From NCBI GenBank assembly GCA_946558465.1, contig CAMNTM010000008.1, forward strand, positions 1 through 64,000: a DNA stretch of 64,000 nt, in the 5' to 3' direction. Shown piece by piece: positions 51,670 to 61,029 of the stretch (the stretch's first letter is position 1; the number at the start of each line of letters is the position of its first letter). The notes beneath the pieces are model-generated. The model had not been told where the DNA came from. It did not search any database and worked only from the letters and a program-made list of their open reading frames with translations. The stretch comes from an uncultured Lachnospiraceae bacterium. GTDB lineage: Bacteria > Bacillota > Clostridia > Lachnospirales > Lachnospiraceae. Both the position numbers and the translations under genes were made by a program.

Positions 51670-53178
51670 TTAGGAGACGGCTGTGTAGGTCTTTTCGAAA
51701 ACATCTTTGTCAATCACATAGATATCGGAAAGGTTTTCGGAGCGTACGACCAGATAATCTCCTGGATTTCCCAACAGGTATTTATCTTCATCCCACAGGG
51801 TAAATATTTTGGCCGATTTTTTCAGGGGCCTTGCATATACAACAGGCTCACGTCTTGGAATACATATTTTTGCATACTGCAGCAGACTACGGGTTTCTCC
51901 GGTCTGCTGATTTTTTATGACAGGACTGTAGGTTACGTCAATTTCATAGGTATGCTCTGTCGTTTCGTAGGACTGCTCGAATTTTTCCCGGCTGACGGGA
52001 TATGCGTCTCCGAGAAGTCCGATGATGATATAGGTGTCATCAGAGATATTCATTTCTATATCGCCGTCGAAGGTTCGTATCAGCGCCGGGGAATTGTCAG
52101 GAAAAAGGCAGCCTGATTTTACGTATCCTACAGGGGTTTTGTGTTTTTTATATCTCGACATGCCTGTAATATCTGCCGGACCGTTCTCTGCATAGAAGAT
52201 ATCAAAGCCGGCAAAGTATTCGTCCATTTTTCCGGCAAAATAGGTTTCCGGGCTGACGGTCTGGTAATGTTCGTCGTAACGGCCAAGACTTATGAAGCCG
52301 CCGGCTTTTTCCAGATGTCCTCCTCCGCTTCCGATATCCTTTGTAAGAAATCTTGCCAGCTCATCGGCACGTACCTCCTTGATGCAGCTTCGTACGGAGA
52401 GCTTGATTCCGTTTGTAAGCTCACTGTACACAACACAGGTGTCTACCATGTCTACCTGCAGCATTAAATCACTGATAAGACCGAGAATATTTGGGTCGCA
52501 GGGTTTTGCTCTTAATACAGCATAGCGGTTTGCATCGTTATAAATGTGACGGATGAGAGCGATGCCGGCAATCTCAAGCTCGTCGAGAGAGAAATTGGCG
52601 TTTCGGAGTCTTGTGACAGCAGGCTTATCAAACTTAAGCTCGTCGCGCATATCCTTGTCGTACGGATTGTAAATTTCACTGAGCTGTCCGGTGTCTGTAT
52701 ACAGTCCGTAGTAGAGTGCAGTCGCAAGATTTTCATCCTGATTGACCGGAAAGTTTTCTTGTATCAGCATCCGCCATACGATCGTAGAGCAGCTTCCACA
52801 GGTGGAATCCATGAACATATGCGGGACCTTATCAATCTCCAGCTGGTGGTGGTCGATAACCGCCACATGCTCTGCGGGAAGTCTTGTCACGTTGCCGGCT
52901 CCATATTGGCAGTCTATTGTAATCAGAAGTTCTTCTGTACCCAGCGGAGAGAACATGGTACTTTCCACATATTCTACAGGAATTTTAAGCTCTCGTATCA
53001 TGAGGAGGAGATTACTTTTTTGTATACGAAAGGGGCCGCTGTAGATAAGAGCCGTCTCGATATTTTTATGGCGGAAATACTGGTACAGGCCAAATCCGGA
53101 GGCAAGTGCATCGGCGTCCGGATTGTCATGGCATTGAATAAAAATTTTTTTATAGCTTTCAAAGGTTTTGAGTCTCAT
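51670..53178 (-). CDS. DHH/DHHA1-family phosphoesterase
   Basis: This 502-residue protein has an N-terminal DHH domain with CHDNPDADALASG, TIDCQYGAGN and VIDHHQLE, followed by DHHA1 with GSGGGHLEKAGG. That core resembles NrnA-type nano-RNases or cyclic-dinucleotide phosphodiesterases. About 150 extra C-terminal residues (after GYVKSGCLF) do not match either and may form a separate sensory or binding domain. It starts after AGGAGG and converges on rarA. The substrate cannot be set from sequence. Confidence 0.85.
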   Translation of the reverse strand: MRLKTFESYKKIFIQCHDNPDADALASGFGLYQYFRHKNIETALIYSGPFRIQKSNLLLMIRELKIPVEYVESTMFSPLGTEELLITIDCQYGAGNVTRLPAEHVAVIDHHQLEIDKVPHMFMDSTCGSCSTIVWRMLIQENFPVNQDENLATALYYGLYTDTGQLSEIYNPYDKDMRDELKFDKPAVTRLRNANFSLDELEIAGIALIRHIYNDANRYAVLRAKPCDPNILGLISDLMLQVDMVDTCVVYSELTNGIKLSVRSCIKEVRADELARFLTKDIGSGGGHLEKAGGFISLGRYDEHYQTVSPETYFAGKMDEYFAGFDIFYAENGPADITGMSRYKKHKTPVGYVKSGCLFPDNSPALIRTFDGDIEMNISDDTYIIIGLLGDAYPVSREKFEQSYETTEHTYEIDVTYSPVIKNQQTGETRSLLQYAKICIPRREPVVYARPLKKSAKIFTLWDEDKYLLGNPGDYLVVRSENLSDIYVIDKDVFEKTYTAVS

Positions 53179-53325: not shown

Positions 53326-53371
53326 TATCCCCCCCAGTGGCTTGTACTGTTTTTTGAAATCAGAGTATAAT
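53326..53371 (+). promoter_or_regulatory. Promoter with RcnR/CsoR-like G-tract operator
   Basis: TATCCCCCCCAGTGG (53326-53340) read on the other strand is CCACTGGGGGGGATA. This resembles the ACT-G6-N-AGT operator of RcnR/CsoR-type metal sensors. It ends one base before the -35 box TTGTAC (53342-53347). The -10 box TATAAT (53366-53371) follows after 18 bases. The operon it starts ends in a CsoR/RcnR-family gene. Confidence 0.65.
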
Positions 53372-53425
53372 AAAAAAGATCATGAAGAAGTCTCTGCAGT
53401 GAAGATATAGTAAAGGAAAAGAAGA

Positions 53426-55048
53426 ATGACAAAAACAAAAGTGAGAAAAATTGCCGGAGTTTTATGCTGTCTTCTCATAGTAGGAGTTACGGCGTGTAAA
53501 GGAAATGAAGAAAGGGAGGAGGTAAGTAAGGCGGATGATACGAATAACTCTCTTGTCTGTTATGTAGGGCATGGATTCTGGGAGGGGTCCCTGGATCCGG
53601 TGAAAGGGGCATTTTCCTATGGCTGGAGTTTTATTAACAACGCACTTCTTAAGGTGCAGCCGGAGGGCTCCTATGTGGGTGATCTGGCCGAGTCCTGGTC
53701 GATATCTGAGGATGCACTTGTTTATACATTTGTTTTGAAAGAGGGGATTCGATTTCAGGATGGCTCCGAGTTTACGGCGGAGGATGTGGTCTTTACCTAT
53801 GAGACGGTGAAGAAAAATCAAGGGGAGAACGAGAAGGTCGATCTAAGTAAAATGGTGTCTGTGGAGGCGGAAGATTCCCGGACTGTGAGAATCACTCTGT
53901 CGGAGCCCTATTCTCCGTTTCTGGATATGACGGCACAGCTTGGAATTGTGCCAAGCGACGGGTATGACAGCGTGGTGTTTGATGAGATGCCGATCGGAAC
54001 CGGGGCCTGGGAGGTGGTACAGTATGATGCGGGGCAGCAGCTGATTGTGAAGGCGAATGAGGATTATTTTGACGGTGCGCCGAATATTTCCAGAGTGACC
54101 TTTGTGGATATGGACAATGAGGCGGCTTTCTCCAATGCTCAGTCCGGACAGCTTGATATTATTATGGTTCAGCCCAATTATGCAGGGGAAACGATAGAAG
54201 GCATGCATATGGAGAAGCTTGCAACGATGGATGTACGCAATGTAAGTCTTCCCTGCAGAGCGCTGCAGCAGATGACGGCGCCTGACGGAACATCTGTAAA
54301 AGCAGGAAATGATGTGACATCGGATTTGGAAGTCCGTGAGGCTTTGAATATCGGGATTGACAGAGAACAGATAATTGAGAATGCATTTAACGGGGTCGGA
54401 GTGCCGGCGTATGGATTTACAGATAATCTTGAGTGGGGAAATGCACCGGAAATGAAGGATGGCCAGATAGAAAAGGCAAAAAAGATATTGGAAGAAGCCG
54501 GCTGGACAGATGAGGATGGGGACGGCATCCGGGAAAAAGACGGACTTCGGTGTGCCTTTGAGGTCTATACTCCTTCTGACGAGCAGGACAGATACCGTCT
54601 GGCAGCGGCGCTGGCTGTAGAAGCAGAAAAGCTGGGAATCAAGATTACAGTAAAACAGACAACCTGGGATGAGATTACAGCCGCTTCTTACCAGGCAGGT
54701 GTTGTGTGGGGCTTCGGACAGTTTAATCCGATTGTTCTCCATCAGTTGTTTGCTTTCGAGACATTTTTGACTGCTCAGTATGCCAATACGCCGGGATATG
54801 AAAATGCCGAGACAGACGCCCTGATTCAGGAGGCGCTTGATGCGCCGGGGCATGACGAAGCAGTGGAAAAGTGGAAGAAGGTACAGGAGGTTTATGCCGG
54901 GGAAGTACCATATCTATATCTTGTGAATATTGAGCATTGTTATTTTATAAGTGACAGGGTGGATATTTCGAAAGAGACACAGGTACCTCATCCACATGGA
55001 CATGGAATCCCGATTATCTGTAATATGAAGGATTGGAAGCTGTTATAA
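53426..55048 (+). CDS. Nickel/peptide-type ABC transporter, substrate-binding lipoprotein
   Basis: This 540-residue family-5 binding protein has a signal ending in lipobox VTAC (Cys near 24). SBP_bac_5 motifs are WSISEDALVYTFVLKEGIRFQDGSEFTAEDVVF and LNIGIDREQI. The C terminus is His-rich, HPHGHGIP, which suits a metal or metal-chelate ligand as in NikA/CntA-like proteins. It heads a five-gene importer operon. The exact ligand (Ni, Co, an opine complex or a peptide) is not fixed by sequence; nickel is inferred mainly from the regulator at the end of the operon. Confidence 0.87.
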   Translation: MTKTKVRKIAGVLCCLLIVGVTACKGNEEREEVSKADDTNNSLVCYVGHGFWEGSLDPVKGAFSYGWSFINNALLKVQPEGSYVGDLAESWSISEDALVYTFVLKEGIRFQDGSEFTAEDVVFTYETVKKNQGENEKVDLSKMVSVEAEDSRTVRITLSEPYSPFLDMTAQLGIVPSDGYDSVVFDEMPIGTGAWEVVQYDAGQQLIVKANEDYFDGAPNISRVTFVDMDNEAAFSNAQSGQLDIIMVQPNYAGETIEGMHMEKLATMDVRNVSLPCRALQQMTAPDGTSVKAGNDVTSDLEVREALNIGIDREQIIENAFNGVGVPAYGFTDNLEWGNAPEMKDGQIEKAKKILEEAGWTDEDGDGIREKDGLRCAFEVYTPSDEQDRYRLAAALAVEAEKLGIKITVKQTTWDEITAASYQAGVVWGFGQFNPIVLHQLFAFETFLTAQYANTPGYENAETDALIQEALDAPGHDEAVEKWKKVQEVYAGEVPYLYLVNIEHCYFISDRVDISKETQVPHPHGHGIPIICNMKDWKLL

Positions 55049-55060
55049 TGTCAGAGGAGT

Positions 55061-55079
55061 CCGGCATCTTTTGTGCCGG
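55061..55079 (+). other. Intercistronic hairpin after the binding-protein gene
   Basis: CCGGCA/TGCCGG with a 7-base loop and no T-run. Such hairpins often stabilise the upstream mRNA so that the binding protein is made in excess of the permeases. Confidence 0.5.
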
Positions 55080-55130
55080 CATAGAAGGTGCGGCATACAG
55101 TAAAAGTGCTGCAGGAAAGGAAGAAAAGGA

Positions 55131-56111
55131 ATGACTTATGTCAGATATCTAGGGCGGACGGTGTTTCGTATGCTGTCGCTGCTGATTGCAGTGAGTGTTC
55201 TCTCTTTTGTGCTTATGGAAGCAGCCCCCATAGATCCGATGACTGCATATATCGGGACGGATTCGGCGCTGTCAGAGGAAGCAAAGGAGGAAATAGCAGA
55301 GCACTGGAGCCTAAAAGATCCTCCCGTCAGGCGGTTTGCAGCGTGGGCGGAAAATTTTCTGCAGGGAGATTGGGGGGACTCAATAACCTTTAAGCGTCCG
55401 GTGAAGACAGTAATACTGGAAAGATTCCGGTATTCTGTGTGGCTGATGCTTGCAGCGTGGACCCTTTCCGGTATTCTGGGATATGTGCTGGGGTTAGCAG
55501 CGGCAGTAAGACGGGGGAGCTTAGGAGACAGGATTATTAAGACCCTTTGTCTGGTGCTTCAATCAGCGCCTACCTTTTGGATAGGTCTTTTGATTTTAAG
55601 CCTGTTTGCGGTGAAACTTCGGTGGTTTCCTATCGGACTGGCCGCTCCTATGGGGAAATTAGCAGATGAGATTACATTAGCCGACCGGATTTATCATATG
55701 ATACTTCCGGCTCTGACCTTAAGTGTTCTGGGGATAGGTAAGATAACGCTTTATACCCGGCAGAAGATGCTTGAAATTATGGAAAGTGATTTTATCCTTT
55801 TTGCAAGGGCAAGGGGAGAGAGTATGGCTCAGATTGTACTGCGGCACGGAATCCGCAATACGCTGATGCCTGCCATAACGCTGCAGTTCGCTTCCTTTAG
55901 CGAGCTGTTCGGAGGGGCTGCACTGGCAGAATCTGTATTTTCCTATCCGGGAATCGGAAGTGCCCTGACAGCGGCGGGGCTAAACGCAGATGTGCCGCTG
56001 CTTCTGGGAATTGCAGTATTCAGTGCGGTATTTGTGTTTGCAGGGAATCTGGCGGCAAACCTTCTGTATATGATCCTGGATCCAAGAATTCGGGAGGCGT
56101 CTGCCAGATGA
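55131..56111 (+). CDS. Nik/Opp-type ABC permease (NikB-like)
   Basis: This 326-residue permease has an N-terminal span (FRMLSLLIAVSVLSFVLM) and the BPD_transp_1 core. The conserved EAA-type loop is ARARGESMAQIVLRHGIRNTLMP. SVFSYPGIGSALTAAG is typical of the B-type subunit. It starts at ATG 55131 after AGGAAAGGAAG. It pairs with the next permease to form the membrane channel. Confidence 0.92.
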   Translation: MTYVRYLGRTVFRMLSLLIAVSVLSFVLMEAAPIDPMTAYIGTDSALSEEAKEEIAEHWSLKDPPVRRFAAWAENFLQGDWGDSITFKRPVKTVILERFRYSVWLMLAAWTLSGILGYVLGLAAAVRRGSLGDRIIKTLCLVLQSAPTFWIGLLILSLFAVKLRWFPIGLAAPMGKLADEITLADRIYHMILPALTLSVLGIGKITLYTRQKMLEIMESDFILFARARGESMAQIVLRHGIRNTLMPAITLQFASFSELFGGAALAESVFSYPGIGSALTAAGLNADVPLLLGIAVFSAVFVFAGNLAANLLYMILDPRIREASAR

Positions 56112-56131
56112 AACGGAGAAGTAACTGAGAT

Positions 56132-56965
56132 ATGAAAAAGACAGGAAAAATAAATACGAGAACCAAAACGTTAATCTATATTGCGGCGGCAGTGCTGTAT
56201 CTTTCTGTAATTTTTATATGGGGGATAAGTATGCCAAAGGAAGCGTATGGAATTGAATACAGCGAAAAGCTTCTGCCCCCGGGCTGGGGACATATTTTCG
56301 GTACGGACGATATGGGAAGAGATATGCTTTTTCGTTCAGTAAAGGGTTTGTCTACAAGTCTTATTATTGCAGTGCTGGCGGCGGGCATCAGTTCGGCGGC
56401 GGCATTGGCCGCAGGAGTGGCGGCTGCAGTATTTGGGGGCCGGATAGATAGTTTTGTCAATTGGTGTGTGGATTTGTGTATGGGAATTCCACATTTGATT
56501 TTATTGATTTTGATTTCCTTTATGATGGGAAGAGGAGTGAAGGGAGTGACAGCGGCTGTGGCTCTGACGCATTGGCCGGAGCTGACTCGTATAGTGCGTT
56601 CAGAGGTACTGCAGATTCGAAACTCTCAGTATGTAAAGGCAGCCTATAAGATGGGAAGGAGCCGGCTGCAGGCAGCGTGGGAGCATATCGTTCCGCATGT
56701 ACTGCCGGTGTATCTGGTAGGTGTAATTTTATTGTTCCCTCATGCTATTATGCATGAGGCGGCGATTACCTTTCTGGGATTTGGACTTCCGGCGGAGGAG
56801 CCGGCAATCGGCGTGATTTTGTCGGAGTCAATGAAATATATTTCTACCGGGAAGTGGTGGCTTGCGTTTTTTCCAGGCTTTATGCTTCTTGCAGCAGTTA
56901 TGCTGTTCGACGTAATCGGAGAAAGCCTGAAAAGGCTTTTGAATCCGGGAAGCGGGAATGAATAG
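56132..56965 (+). CDS. Nik/Opp-type ABC permease (NikC-like)
   Basis: This 277-residue permease has the FGTDDMGRDMLFRSVKGLSTSL motif of C-type subunits, and the EAA loop YVKAAYKMGRSRLQAAWEHIVPHVLP. EAAITFLGFGLPAEEPAIGVIL is the usual C-terminal block. About six spans are visible. It starts 20 bases after the NikB-like gene and is followed by a short repeat before the ATPase gene. Confidence 0.92.
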   Translation: MKKTGKINTRTKTLIYIAAAVLYLSVIFIWGISMPKEAYGIEYSEKLLPPGWGHIFGTDDMGRDMLFRSVKGLSTSLIIAVLAAGISSAAALAAGVAAAVFGGRIDSFVNWCVDLCMGIPHLILLILISFMMGRGVKGVTAAVALTHWPELTRIVRSEVLQIRNSQYVKAAYKMGRSRLQAAWEHIVPHVLPVYLVGVILLFPHAIMHEAAITFLGFGLPAEEPAIGVILSESMKYISTGKWWLAFFPGFMLLAAVMLFDVIGESLKRLLNPGSGNE

Positions 56966-56971
56966 ACTTTG

Positions 56972-57060
56972 GAAAACAGCCTGAAAAGAAGCGGATGGAA
57001 GGAAACTGGATTGGAACGAGGCAGATAAAAAGAAAACAGCTTGAAAAGAAGTGGATGAAA
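56972..57060 (+). repeat. Two 29-base direct repeats 60 bases apart
   Basis: GAAAACAGCCTGAAAAGAAG... (56972-57000) and GAAAACAGCTTGAAAAGAAG... (57032-57060) differ at only a few positions. They fill the spacer between the NikC-like and NikD-like genes. The second copy contains the weak start signal of the ATPase gene. The pattern looks like a local tandem duplication. Confidence 0.7.
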
Positions 57061-57062
57061 AA

Positions 57063-58043
57063 ATGGAAAAAAAGGAAAAGGAATCTGTAACGGGAGTAGA
57101 GAACAAGTGGGAGCATGAAAAGGGAAAAGCTCCGGTATTGGAGGTAGAAGATCTTACCGTTTCCTTTGGCATGTATTATAAGGGACTCAGGAGGAGAGAG
57201 CTTGAGGTGCTGCACAGACTGAGTCTTACGGTTTATGCCGGGGAAATTATGGCAGTGATAGGCGCTAGTGGTTCGGGAAAGAGTGTTCTTGCGCATGCTG
57301 TGCTTGGGATTCTTCCGGGAAATGCTGCCGTGCAGGGAGAGATGAGATACCAGGGAGGGGCCTATGGGGAAAAAGAGCAGAAAAGGCTGCGGGGGAAAGA
57401 GATTGTGCTGATTCCTCAATCCGTGGATTATCTGGACCCGCTGATGCGTGTAGGGCGTCAGGTGAGGGGCGTGCGGGGAAGTAAGAAAATGCAGGAGAAT
57501 GTATTTGAGCGGTACGGGCTTTCGGAGAATGTGGACAGACTGTATCCGTGGGAGCTTTCCGGCGGTATGGCGCGGAGGGTGCTGATCTCTGCGGCGGAGA
57601 TGGAGAAGGCCCGGCTGGTGGTGGCTGATGAGCCGACGCCGGGACTGAATGAGGAGATGGCAGAGGAAACAATGAAAAGCTTTCGCCAAATGGCAGAGCG
57701 GGGCTGCGGGGTACTTTTGATTACCCATGATATTGATCTGGCGTTTCGCAGTGCAGACCGGATCGCTGTGTTTTACGCAGGAACAGTTGTAGAAGAAGCG
57801 CTGACAGAAGATTTTCAGTCAGGAGGAGCGGCGCTTAGGCATCCATACAGCAGAGCATTTTTAGACGCGCTGCCTCAGAACGGCTTCCGCCCGATTCCGG
57901 GATCTCAGCCCTATGCGGGAAATCTGCCGAAGGGCTGTCTCTTCGCAGACAGATGTCCGATGCGCTCGGAGGCGTGTGGAAGGGAGATTAAGATGCGGGA
58001 AGTCCGTGGAGGAAGGGTAAGGTGCATACGAGATGAAATCTAA
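57063..58043 (+). CDS. Nik/Opp-type ABC ATPase (NikD/OppD-like)
   Basis: This ATPase of about 326 residues has Walker A GASGSGKSV, signature ELSGGMARRVLI, and Walker B LVVADEPTPGL. The C-terminal CLFADRCPMRSEAC is the cysteine-containing tail of OppD/DppD-type subunits. The track starts at GTG 57051; ATG 57063 is equally possible, and neither has a strong ribosome site. It overlaps the next ATPase gene by 11 bases. Confidence 0.92.
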   Translation: MEKKEKESVTGVENKWEHEKGKAPVLEVEDLTVSFGMYYKGLRRRELEVLHRLSLTVYAGEIMAVIGASGSGKSVLAHAVLGILPGNAAVQGEMRYQGGAYGEKEQKRLRGKEIVLIPQSVDYLDPLMRVGRQVRGVRGSKKMQENVFERYGLSENVDRLYPWELSGGMARRVLISAAEMEKARLVVADEPTPGLNEEMAEETMKSFRQMAERGCGVLLITHDIDLAFRSADRIAVFYAGTVVEEALTEDFQSGGAALRHPYSRAFLDALPQNGFRPIPGSQPYAGNLPKGCLFADRCPMRSEACGREIKMREVRGGRVRCIRDEI

Positions 58044-58731
58044 AGACGGAGGAAAAAGAGGAGAGCCGGAAAAAGAAATTGGGCTTGAGGCTTTGAATAT
58101 CGGTTTTCGTTATTCTCCCCGGAAGCCGTGGATTTTAAAGGAGGTAAGCCTTCATATACAGGCGGGAGAGCGTGCTGCACTTGTGGGTCCTTCAGGTTGT
58201 GGGAAGAGTACGCTTGCAAAAATACTGGCGGGCTGCGAGCAGCCAAAGGAAGGAGCTGTTCTGTGGCAGAAAGCTCCGCTTCCTAAGAAGGGATACTGTC
58301 CGGTGCAGCTCATCTATCAGCACCCGGAGCTGGCGGTAAATCCAAGATGGAAGATGGAAAAAATCTTAACAGAAGGGTGGGAGCCGGATGAGAAGCTGCT
58401 CCGGGATATGGGAATTGAGAAAGAGTGGCTCACAAGATGGCCGTCGGAGCTTTCCGCAGGAGAGCTCCAGCGGTTTTGTATCGCACGGGTGCTGGGGCCT
58501 GAAACAAAGTTTTTAATTTGTGATGAGATCAGTACGATGCTCGATGTCATTACCCAGGCACAGATCTGGCAGAATGTTCTTAAAGCAGCCGAAAGGAACG
58601 GATTCGGGATGCTTGTAGTAACGCATAACATGGCTCTTGCCAGGCGGGTATGTACAAGAATCATTGAACTGCCAAAGCTGAACAAGGGGTTGTGTTTATC
58701 TGGACAGATGCGTATAATAGACAGGGGATAA
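58033..58731 (+). CDS. Nik/Opp-type ABC ATPase (NikE/OppF-like)
   Basis: This 232-residue ATPase has Walker A GPSGCGKST, signature ELSAGELQRFCIAR, and Walker B KFLICDEISTMLD. The glutamate after the Walker B aspartate is present. It lacks the long Opp C-terminal tail and so resembles short NikE-type subunits. It completes the importer. It overlaps the preceding ATPase by 11 bases and is followed 49 bases later by the metal-sensor gene. Confidence 0.92.
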   Translation: MKSKDGGKRGEPEKEIGLEALNIGFRYSPRKPWILKEVSLHIQAGERAALVGPSGCGKSTLAKILAGCEQPKEGAVLWQKAPLPKKGYCPVQLIYQHPELAVNPRWKMEKILTEGWEPDEKLLRDMGIEKEWLTRWPSELSAGELQRFCIARVLGPETKFLICDEISTMLDVITQAQIWQNVLKAAERNGFGMLVVTHNMALARRVCTRIIELPKLNKGLCLSGQMRIIDRG

Positions 58732-58780
58732 GAAGTATATTATTGTTGTAGTAAAACATTAAGAAGGGCCGGCAGAAAAG

Positions 58781-59077
58781 ATGAAGGAACATAAACACCT
58801 GCATGGACATGTACACAGCGCAGAGGAAAAGAAAGCGGTAGTAAACCGCCTGTCGAAGGCAATAGGGCATCTGGAGGCAGTCAAACGTATGGTAGAGAAT
58901 GATGCCGACTGCAGTGATGTGCTGATTCAGCTTGCTGCAGTTCGATCAGCAATTAATAATACAGGAAAGGTTGTGCTCAAAAACCACATGAACCACTGCA
59001 TAGTGGAGGCAGTGGAGGAGCATGACTTAGAGGCGGTTGAAAAGCTGAACCAGGCGATTGATAAATTTATGAAATAA
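58781..59077 (+). CDS. CsoR/RcnR-family metal-sensing repressor
   Basis: This 98-residue all-helical repressor begins with a His-rich tail MKEHKHLHGHVHS. It then has the family core KKAVVNRLSKAIGHLEAVKRMVENDADCSDVLIQL. The metal-site pattern is Cys in ADCSDVL, with His and Cys in NHMNHCIV. His-rich ends favour nickel or cobalt, while the Cys-His-Cys set also occurs in copper CsoR proteins. It is the last gene of the Nik-like operon and likely acts at the G-tract site by the operon promoter. Confidence 0.88.
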   Translation: MKEHKHLHGHVHSAEEKKAVVNRLSKAIGHLEAVKRMVENDADCSDVLIQLAAVRSAINNTGKVVLKNHMNHCIVEAVEEHDLEAVEKLNQAIDKFMK

Positions 59078-59082
59078 TCGTG

Positions 59083-61029
59083 TTATTCTGCATCCAATGA
59101 ATTTTCCGGCGGAAGGCAGATATAATTTTTACATACATAAAATGTTGTCTTTTCATTTATGAGCGGATACTCGCTGTTTTCTGAAACAACGATTACGTCG
59201 GCCAATACCGGGAGCTGCTTTTTAATTTTTTCCAAATCTGAAATATCCTTTAGAGAAATCACAATATGTTTTGGCGGATTGTCATAAATCAGCTTTGCCA
59301 GCAGAAACATACTGTATCCTGCCGGAAAAATCTGTGCCTGTGCCGACATAAAATGAATCTGCTTTTCGGCCAGTTCTCTGTACTCCTTCTTACCGGTCAG
59401 CTGATAAAGCCTGACAAGATTATATGCCATAATAGAATTTCCGCTTGGGACGGCGCCGTCATAGGTTTCCTTCGGACTCATAAAGAGTTCTGTACTGTCC
59501 GGAGCAGACAGATAAAACCCGCCGTTTTTTTCATCGGCGAATCGTTTTACTGTTTCATTTAAGAACTGTTCTGCTTTTTCGAGATATTCCTTGTTCAGAG
59601 TGGAATTATAAAGCTCTGTCAATGCAGTAATATAAAATGCATAGTCGTCTAAAAAACTGTTTTTTGAGTGCTTCTCCTTGCGCCAGCTTGTAAACAAGCA
59701 TAGATCTCTGCATAAATTCTTTTCAATAAATTTTTGTGCGTTTATAGCTGCCTGAAGATATTCCGCCTCCTTTGAAGCCCTGTAAAGTACAGATAATGCT
59801 GCTGTCATCATAGAATTCCAGGAAAGCAGAACCTTGTCATCAAGGTGCAGCTTTGAACGATTTTTTCGGTAAATATACAGCTTTTGAAGCTCTTCGCTGT
59901 AATCTGACTTCAAATCATTGCTTTTTAGAAGATTTGGAATATTTACATCTTCAAAATTACCGTCTGCGGTAATATCAAATGTATCTGAAAATGGTTTTCC
60001 CTTTTCCTTTCCCAGAAGCTTGATGATTTCGTCCAATGTAAAGGTATAGAATTTTCCTTCTATTCCTTCACTGTCAGCATCCTGTGCACTGTAGAATTCT
60101 CCGGCCGGACCGGTCATTTCACGGAGAATATATTGTGCAGTTTTCATTGCAGTATCCAAATAAATCTGCTTTCCGGATGCCGTGTAAACTGCCGTATATG
60201 CGATAATCAGCAGTGCATTGTCATACAGCATTTTTTCAAAATGAGGTGCAAGAAAGTATTTGTCAGTGGAATATCTGGAAAATCCATATCCGACATGATC
60301 AAATATGCCGCCTTTACGCATCTGTGTAAGAGTTTTTTCGGCCATTTTCAATATATACGGATTCTGGCTTTGTTCTGCGTACAATGTCAGAAATAATAAA
60401 TTGTGGGGAACGGGAAATTTGGGAGCCTCTCCGAAGCCGCCGCATACGCTGTCAAAGCTGTCCGAAAACAGCTGTACTGCTTTCTCGAAGAGATTCTCGT
60501 CGAATTCATTTTCCTTTCTATAACCGGGCTGTGCTTCCTTGAGATGTGCGATTAATTCGTCTGCCGAGTGTAAAAGCTCTTTTCGGTTTTTGTTCCACTG
60601 ATTTACCACGGCATTCAGCAAATCAGCAAATCCCGGCATACCGTGCTGTGACCGTATCGGAAAATATGTTCCTGCAAAAAACGGCTTTTTGTCCCAGGTC
60701 ATGAAGATGCTCATAGGCCATCCGCCGCTTCCGGTAAATGTCTGGCACACGGACATATATACACTGTCAATGTCAGGACGTTCCTCCCGGTCGACCTTGA
60801 TAGAAACAAAATATTGATTTAGAATATCAGCCGCTGTTTGATTTTCAAAGCTTTCGTGTGCCATAACGTGGCACCAATGACATGTGCTGTAGCCGATGCT
60901 TAAGAAAACCGGCTTATCCTCTCTTCTGGCTTTCTCAAATGCTTCTATGCACCACGGATACCAATCTACAGGGTTTTCTGCATGCTGCAGAAGATACGGG
61001 CTTGTCTCGTTTTTCAGGTGATTGCTCAT
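59083..61029 (-). CDS. yyaL: Thioredoxin-domain protein YyaL (DUF255)
   Basis: This 648-residue protein has an N-terminal thioredoxin-like domain (about 1-165) with the motif [17 protein letters not shown] (CxxC) and [10 protein letters not shown]. An alpha/alpha-barrel region like that of glycoside-processing enzymes follows, with [16 protein letters not shown] and [10 protein letters not shown]. The length is slightly below the usual 670-690. The cellular role of this widely conserved family is not established. It converges on the CsoR-like gene with only 5 bases between them and no terminator. Confidence 0.92.

Follow-up and report, generated by a model that had tools for sequence, protein, structure and literature searches.

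A conserved G-tract operator and an InrS-like sensor at nickel-type importers of NikR-less Clostridia suggest activation of uptake by the apo-sensor

How is nickel import governed where NikR is missing, and what is a sensor of the CsoR/RcnR family doing at the end of an importer operon? Fewer than half of the organisms bearing NikABCDE have NikR, and NikR-independent control has been proposed on that ground (PMC2667541). The locus described here, in a 64,000-nucleotide stretch of Lachnospiraceae DNA (the window), offers, for a large group of bacteria living in the gut, a concrete candidate for such control: a sensor from a family known mainly for nickel and copper export, which appears to run uptake in Lachnospiraceae and their relatives, together with its putative operator. 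The features of the locus are as follows.

53326..53347, operator, TATCCCCCCCAGTGGCTTGTAC on the plus strand and CCACTGGGGGGGATA on the minus strand (53326–53340); dyad centre at about -42/-43
53342..53347, plus strand, degenerate -35 hexamer TTGTAC, overlapped by the right arm of the operator
53366..53371, plus strand, -10 box TATAAT, 18 nt after TTGTAC; the genome-wide pattern matches at 53329–53371
53426..55048, plus strand, substrate-binding lipoprotein (SBP_bac_5), nearest solved relative Yersinia YntA
55131..56111, plus strand, permease, NikB/Opp2B-like
56132..56965, plus strand, permease, NikC/Opp2C-like
57051..58043, plus strand, ABC ATPase with oligo_HPY tail, NikD/OppD-like
58033..58731, plus strand, ABC ATPase, NikE-like
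58781..59077, plus strand, DUF156 sensor, InrS-like, ligands H12-C44-H69-C73

The operon (53426–59077) lies on the plus strand throughout, in the order binding protein, B, C, D, E, and sensor, and has the gene complement of the NikA/YntA type, with an SBP_bac_5 protein, two permeases, and two ATPases. The top PDB match of the binding protein is the nickel-binding YntA of Yersinia (260 bits; next match, 164 bits). Because every importer protein falls below the curated NikA and NikB–E equivalog cut-offs (e.g., 152 vs. 393 for nikA), we infer from the similarity to YntA and from context that the operon encodes a YntA/NikA-type importer with nickel as its probable cargo. Yersinia YntABCDE shares the gene complement and supplies the nearest solved binding protein but is only about 30-odd percent similar, and it is linked to urease rather than to a DUF156 sensor. 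An earlier note on this DNA had the binding protein end in HPHGHGIP; the motif is present, close to the C-terminus but not at the very end (...VPHPHGHGIPIICNMKDWKLL), and HPHGHG is kept near the C-terminus in 23 of 23 related proteins. The genome encodes LarC, and no CODH/prismane protein was found in it. Flanking the operon are a divergent gene for a DHH-family protein (51670–53178) and a convergent gene for a DUF255 thioredoxin-like protein (59083–61029).

The last gene had been called a CsoR/RcnR-family repressor with a His-rich start and likened to RcnR-type sensors. Its membership in the CsoR/RcnR family is clear (PF02583, DUF156/Trns_repr_metal; 98.7 bits vs. a cut-off of 22.8, E=2.6e-28), as is the His-rich N-terminus (MKEHKHLHGHVHS), but the ligands are those of InrS (H-C-H-C) and not those of RcnR (H-C-H-H). 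The best PDB match is InrS (5fmn, 84 bits, ahead of 70 and 57 for the two that follow), and in a pairwise alignment H12, C44, H69, and C73 fall on H21, C53, H78, and C82, the nickel ligands of InrS (PMC7055735). All of the 59 orthologs have H10, H12, C44, and H69, and 58 of them have C73. Sequence comparison thus identifies the protein as an InrS-like member of the family.

Two other assignments were rejected. Membership in RcnR is ruled out by the fourth ligand, a cysteine, and the sensor scores 47.7 bits against the RcnR profile (NCBIfam cut-off, 138); E. coli RcnR shares the family and a G-tract operator but represses export genes. Copper CsoR shares the family, the C-H-C core, and a G-tract dyad, and is ruled out by the invariant N-terminal HxH and by targets that are importers; CsoR paralogs aligned here lack the HxH N-terminus, and the second DUF156 gene of the window genome has no HxH start.

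The G-tract that the earlier note had placed on the minus strand at the operon promoter is confirmed as the single pattern match in the window. For the pattern ACTGGGGGGN{0,2}TA the window gives one match versus 0.02 expected in shuffles, and for CTGGGGGGN{0,3}TA the 3.1 Mb genome gives three. The motif aligns at a constant position in front of 22 of 23 related importers, which rules out a chance run of G. As a pseudo-palindromic G-tract near a target promoter, the site has the form expected of a CsoR/RcnR-family operator, the known ones being G-tract dyads (PMC3902906).

We compared 23 related importer loci from Lachnospiraceae, Eubacterium, and Clostridium. In 22 of these, a dyad ATNCCCCC-n-GGGGCTTG lies upstream of the binding protein gene, with a good -10 box 17 or 18 nt after a TTGnnn or TTCnnn hexamer. 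The sole exception, L028, comes from a small genome (1.1 Mb) in which no sensor was found. A family sample added two importer loci with the operator, L153 and L154, from genomes that have the sensor (G081 and G089; the site has diverged in G081), and two lacking it, L155 and L156, from genomes with no close sensor (G028 and G146). Over all these importer loci and that of the window, the operator is present in 25 of 25 with a sensor in the genome versus 0 of 3 without.

A blind search was made of 150 genomes, one per genus, with the pattern CCCCNNNNNNGGSTTN{21,22}TANNNT, which couples the operator to a -10 box at a set distance. Genomes with a close sensor (>87 bits; 42 in all) had a mean of 1.83 matches versus 0.57 for the reversed control, and the other 108 a mean of 0.53 versus 0.62. 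The presence of a match tracks that of the sensor (Fisher p=7e-9, for counts that are not independent, the genomes being related), with 5 of the 42 sensor-positive genomes having no match. NikR (PF08753) was missing from 44 of 44 of these genomes, with control genomes positive as expected, which rules it out as the regulator. E. coli NikR exerts feedback control over a NikABCDE-type importer, but the protein is unrelated to the sensor and its operator is GTATGA-N16-TCATAC. Five leaders searched for an RNA element (L155, L156, L010, L153, and L148) gave no Rfam match.

To see what the operator precedes, we followed 49 sites in sensor-positive genomes, checking representatives by Pfam; the sites were picked by hand for strong-looking dyads, so the counts describe strong sites and not all matches. 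Nik/opp-type ABC import operons follow 27 and CbiMQO operons 10 (37 together); nine precede associated genes, namely class I methyltransferase or AstE-type genes (seven), which lead nik operons elsewhere, larC (one), and a sensor paralog (one), and three are unassigned. None of the 49 precedes a recognized exporter. A search for symmetric palindromes in 38 sensor-positive genomes found seven places, several intragenic and none before a recognized exporter, and no operator was seen upstream of the CDF genes in L107 and L138. At L106 (6822–7586), L187, L189, L193, L195, L205, L209, L211, L213, L216, L218, L223, and L226, nik-type operons with the same operator begin with a class I methyltransferase, in some cases with an AstE/AspA-type hydrolase fused to it or next in line; these genes may serve in making or processing a metal ligand. 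An FmdE-family gene with a zinc-finger tail adjoins the operator and nik-type operons at L108 (13239–13781) and L211.

The direction of control is suggested by promoter geometry. In 74 aligned sites (that of the window and 73 others, some found by a search in which TT and the -10 box were preset), the dyad centre lies near -42.5 relative to the -10 box and the right arm occupies the -35 position. The TT of the -35 hexamer, kept by pattern or alignment, is usually followed by G or C, and positions 4–6 are T/C, G/C, and mixed rather than ACA; A at position 4 has a frequency of 5% versus 30% in the spacer. The spacer is 17–18 nt, and an extended -10 (TGn) occurs in 45 of 74. In the window, TTGTAC scores too poorly as a -35 to be listed in a scan for consensus promoters. 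Class II activators have their sites in this position, near -42 over a weak -35. By contrast, the copper csoR-copA promoter of G034 (L243), a promoter of the TTGACATATACCCCTAGGGGGTATAAT type, is TTGACA-N17-TATAAT, both boxes perfect, with a G-tract dyad inside the spacer, to judge by its layout a clean repressor geometry unlike that of the importer promoters. A repressor could also use a site at -42, and the weakness of the -35 may reflect nothing more than low expression.

We propose, with a probability of about 0.6, that in Clostridia lacking NikR the InrS-like sensor in its apo form activates nickel uptake and that Ni(II) releases it. The main job of the sensor in these bacteria would be nickel uptake and not export. 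At low nickel, the apo-sensor would sit on the G-tract operator near -42, overlapping the defective -35, and aid RNA polymerase in starting the importer operon by class II activation; once Ni(II) fills the H-C-H-C site, the sensor would leave the DNA, as every studied member of the family does, and uptake would stop. Other nickel importers in related genomes would come under this sensor and operator as well. Comparison establishes the identity of the sensor, its ligands, the conservation of the operator, the fixed promoter geometry, the content of the regulon, the co-occurrence of sensor and operator, and the absence of NikR; we infer that the DNA-binding protein is the sensor, the effector nickel, and the activating form the apo form.

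The earlier note had held that feedback shut-off of uptake would need a metal-bound repressor. The promoter does not bear this out: the operator is in the class II position, around -42 and across a degenerate -35, and from there an apo-activator that leaves the DNA on binding Ni(II) would shut uptake off just as well. The note had also considered the wiring of such a sensor to an importer unusual; it has one reported precedent, given in a single sentence of a review, in which InrS is said to bind in front of the nik operon of Synechocystis and to raise its expression (PMC7055735). With the -42 geometry, this precedent lets activation by the apo-sensor explain import control through the usual allostery of the family. 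InrS of Synechocystis PCC 6803, the closest solved sequence, has the His-rich N-terminus and the full H-C-H-C set in common with the sensor. It differs in being cyanobacterial, whereas the sensor belongs to Clostridia with a regulon common to many genera; efflux as well as nik import is reported to be under its influence (PMC7055735), whereas no efflux target was seen here; and, unlike it, the sensor has an operator preceding importers of at least two classes. In the literature that we searched, no DUF156 sensor of Clostridia is described as having a nickel-uptake regulon. If the apo-sensor does activate, a family seen as repressors of export extends to the activation of import, and the position of the operator, at -42 or in the spacer, predicts the sign of regulation.

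The main rival, which we consider unlikely, is the metal-bound repressor itself, in which the Ni(II)-sensor blocks the -35 in the manner of NikR, with allostery inverted for its family. The overlap of operator and -35 would suit it, and with a regulon of uptake genes the physiological outcome would be the same. However, RcnR, InrS, and DmeR all release DNA with metal (PMC7055735), the ligand set of the sensor is identical to that of InrS, and a -35 that is already poor leaves little to repress. Repression by the apo form, with Ni(II) derepressing the importers as a substrate induces its uptake, would require neither new allostery nor activation and fits an operator that overlaps the core promoter. 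We rate it as quite improbable: it means positive feedback on the uptake of a toxic metal, the followed sites lie before importers and no exporters, and the geometry differs from that of the copper repressor promoter of the same family.

Activation of nickel uptake by the apo-sensor also agrees with where the sensor gene is found. The linkage of nickel-type importer, family sensor, and matching operator that the earlier note had pointed out recurs across genera in several gene orders, with the sensor downstream of the importer (the window, L007–L009, and L117), upstream (L024–L026, that of L025 being a 44% paralog), or divergent (L027). It also adjoins methyltransferase-led nik operons (L074 and L151) and CbiMQO operons (L118, L129, and L148), follows larEBC (L119) and larBC (L149), and lies inside a CODH/ACS cluster (L140). 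The larEBC, larBC, and CODH/ACS genes belong to nickel systems. Elsewhere, the sensor is found without an importer, beside a gene for a P-loop NBP35-type protein or a glycerol-3-phosphate antiterminator-like gene. A gene for an NBP35/Mrp-type P-loop NTPase adjoins the sensor gene in many genera (L062, L120, L125, L126, L128, and L131).

These nickel neighbours weigh against the reading that the regulon is real and the signal is cobalt, zinc, copper, or an imported nickel complex, as do the H-C-H-C set, which is the nickel site of InrS, and a binding protein nearest to a nickel-binding one. In its favour, InrS accepts Cu(I), Co(II), and Zn(II) as well (PMC7055735), cobalt or other cargo is possible for CbiMQO and SBP_bac_5 systems, and the methyltransferase/AstE genes could point to a small molecule as the ligand; we give it little credence. 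That the operator serves some other regulator, with the sensor as a bystander, is very improbable, for although sensor and importer are unlinked in many genomes, the sites are G-tract dyads like the family's known operators, their counts follow the presence of the sensor, and the operator stands before some sensor genes themselves (L042/L068, L139, and L212).

A second group of sites lies in the spacer between -35 and -10. In two sensor-positive genomes, G116 (L228/L239) and G036 (L232/L245), a CCCC-N-GGGG dyad occupies the spacer of a small His/Cys-rich gene, which in G116 adjoins cooC; no His-rich gene was found upstream of cooC in L109. It is possible, if doubtful, that in Lachnospiraceae the apo-sensor both activates importers from near -42 and represses this nickel-storage-like gene from the spacer, in which case release by Ni(II) would turn uptake off and storage on. 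Only a few genomes have spacer-type matches (11 of 150, 8 with the sensor), and among the matches is the copper csoR promoter, which makes this second arm a lead only. A spacer-type G-tract dyad also precedes an MBL-fold beta-CASP-like gene at L238 (G051) and L244 (G156).
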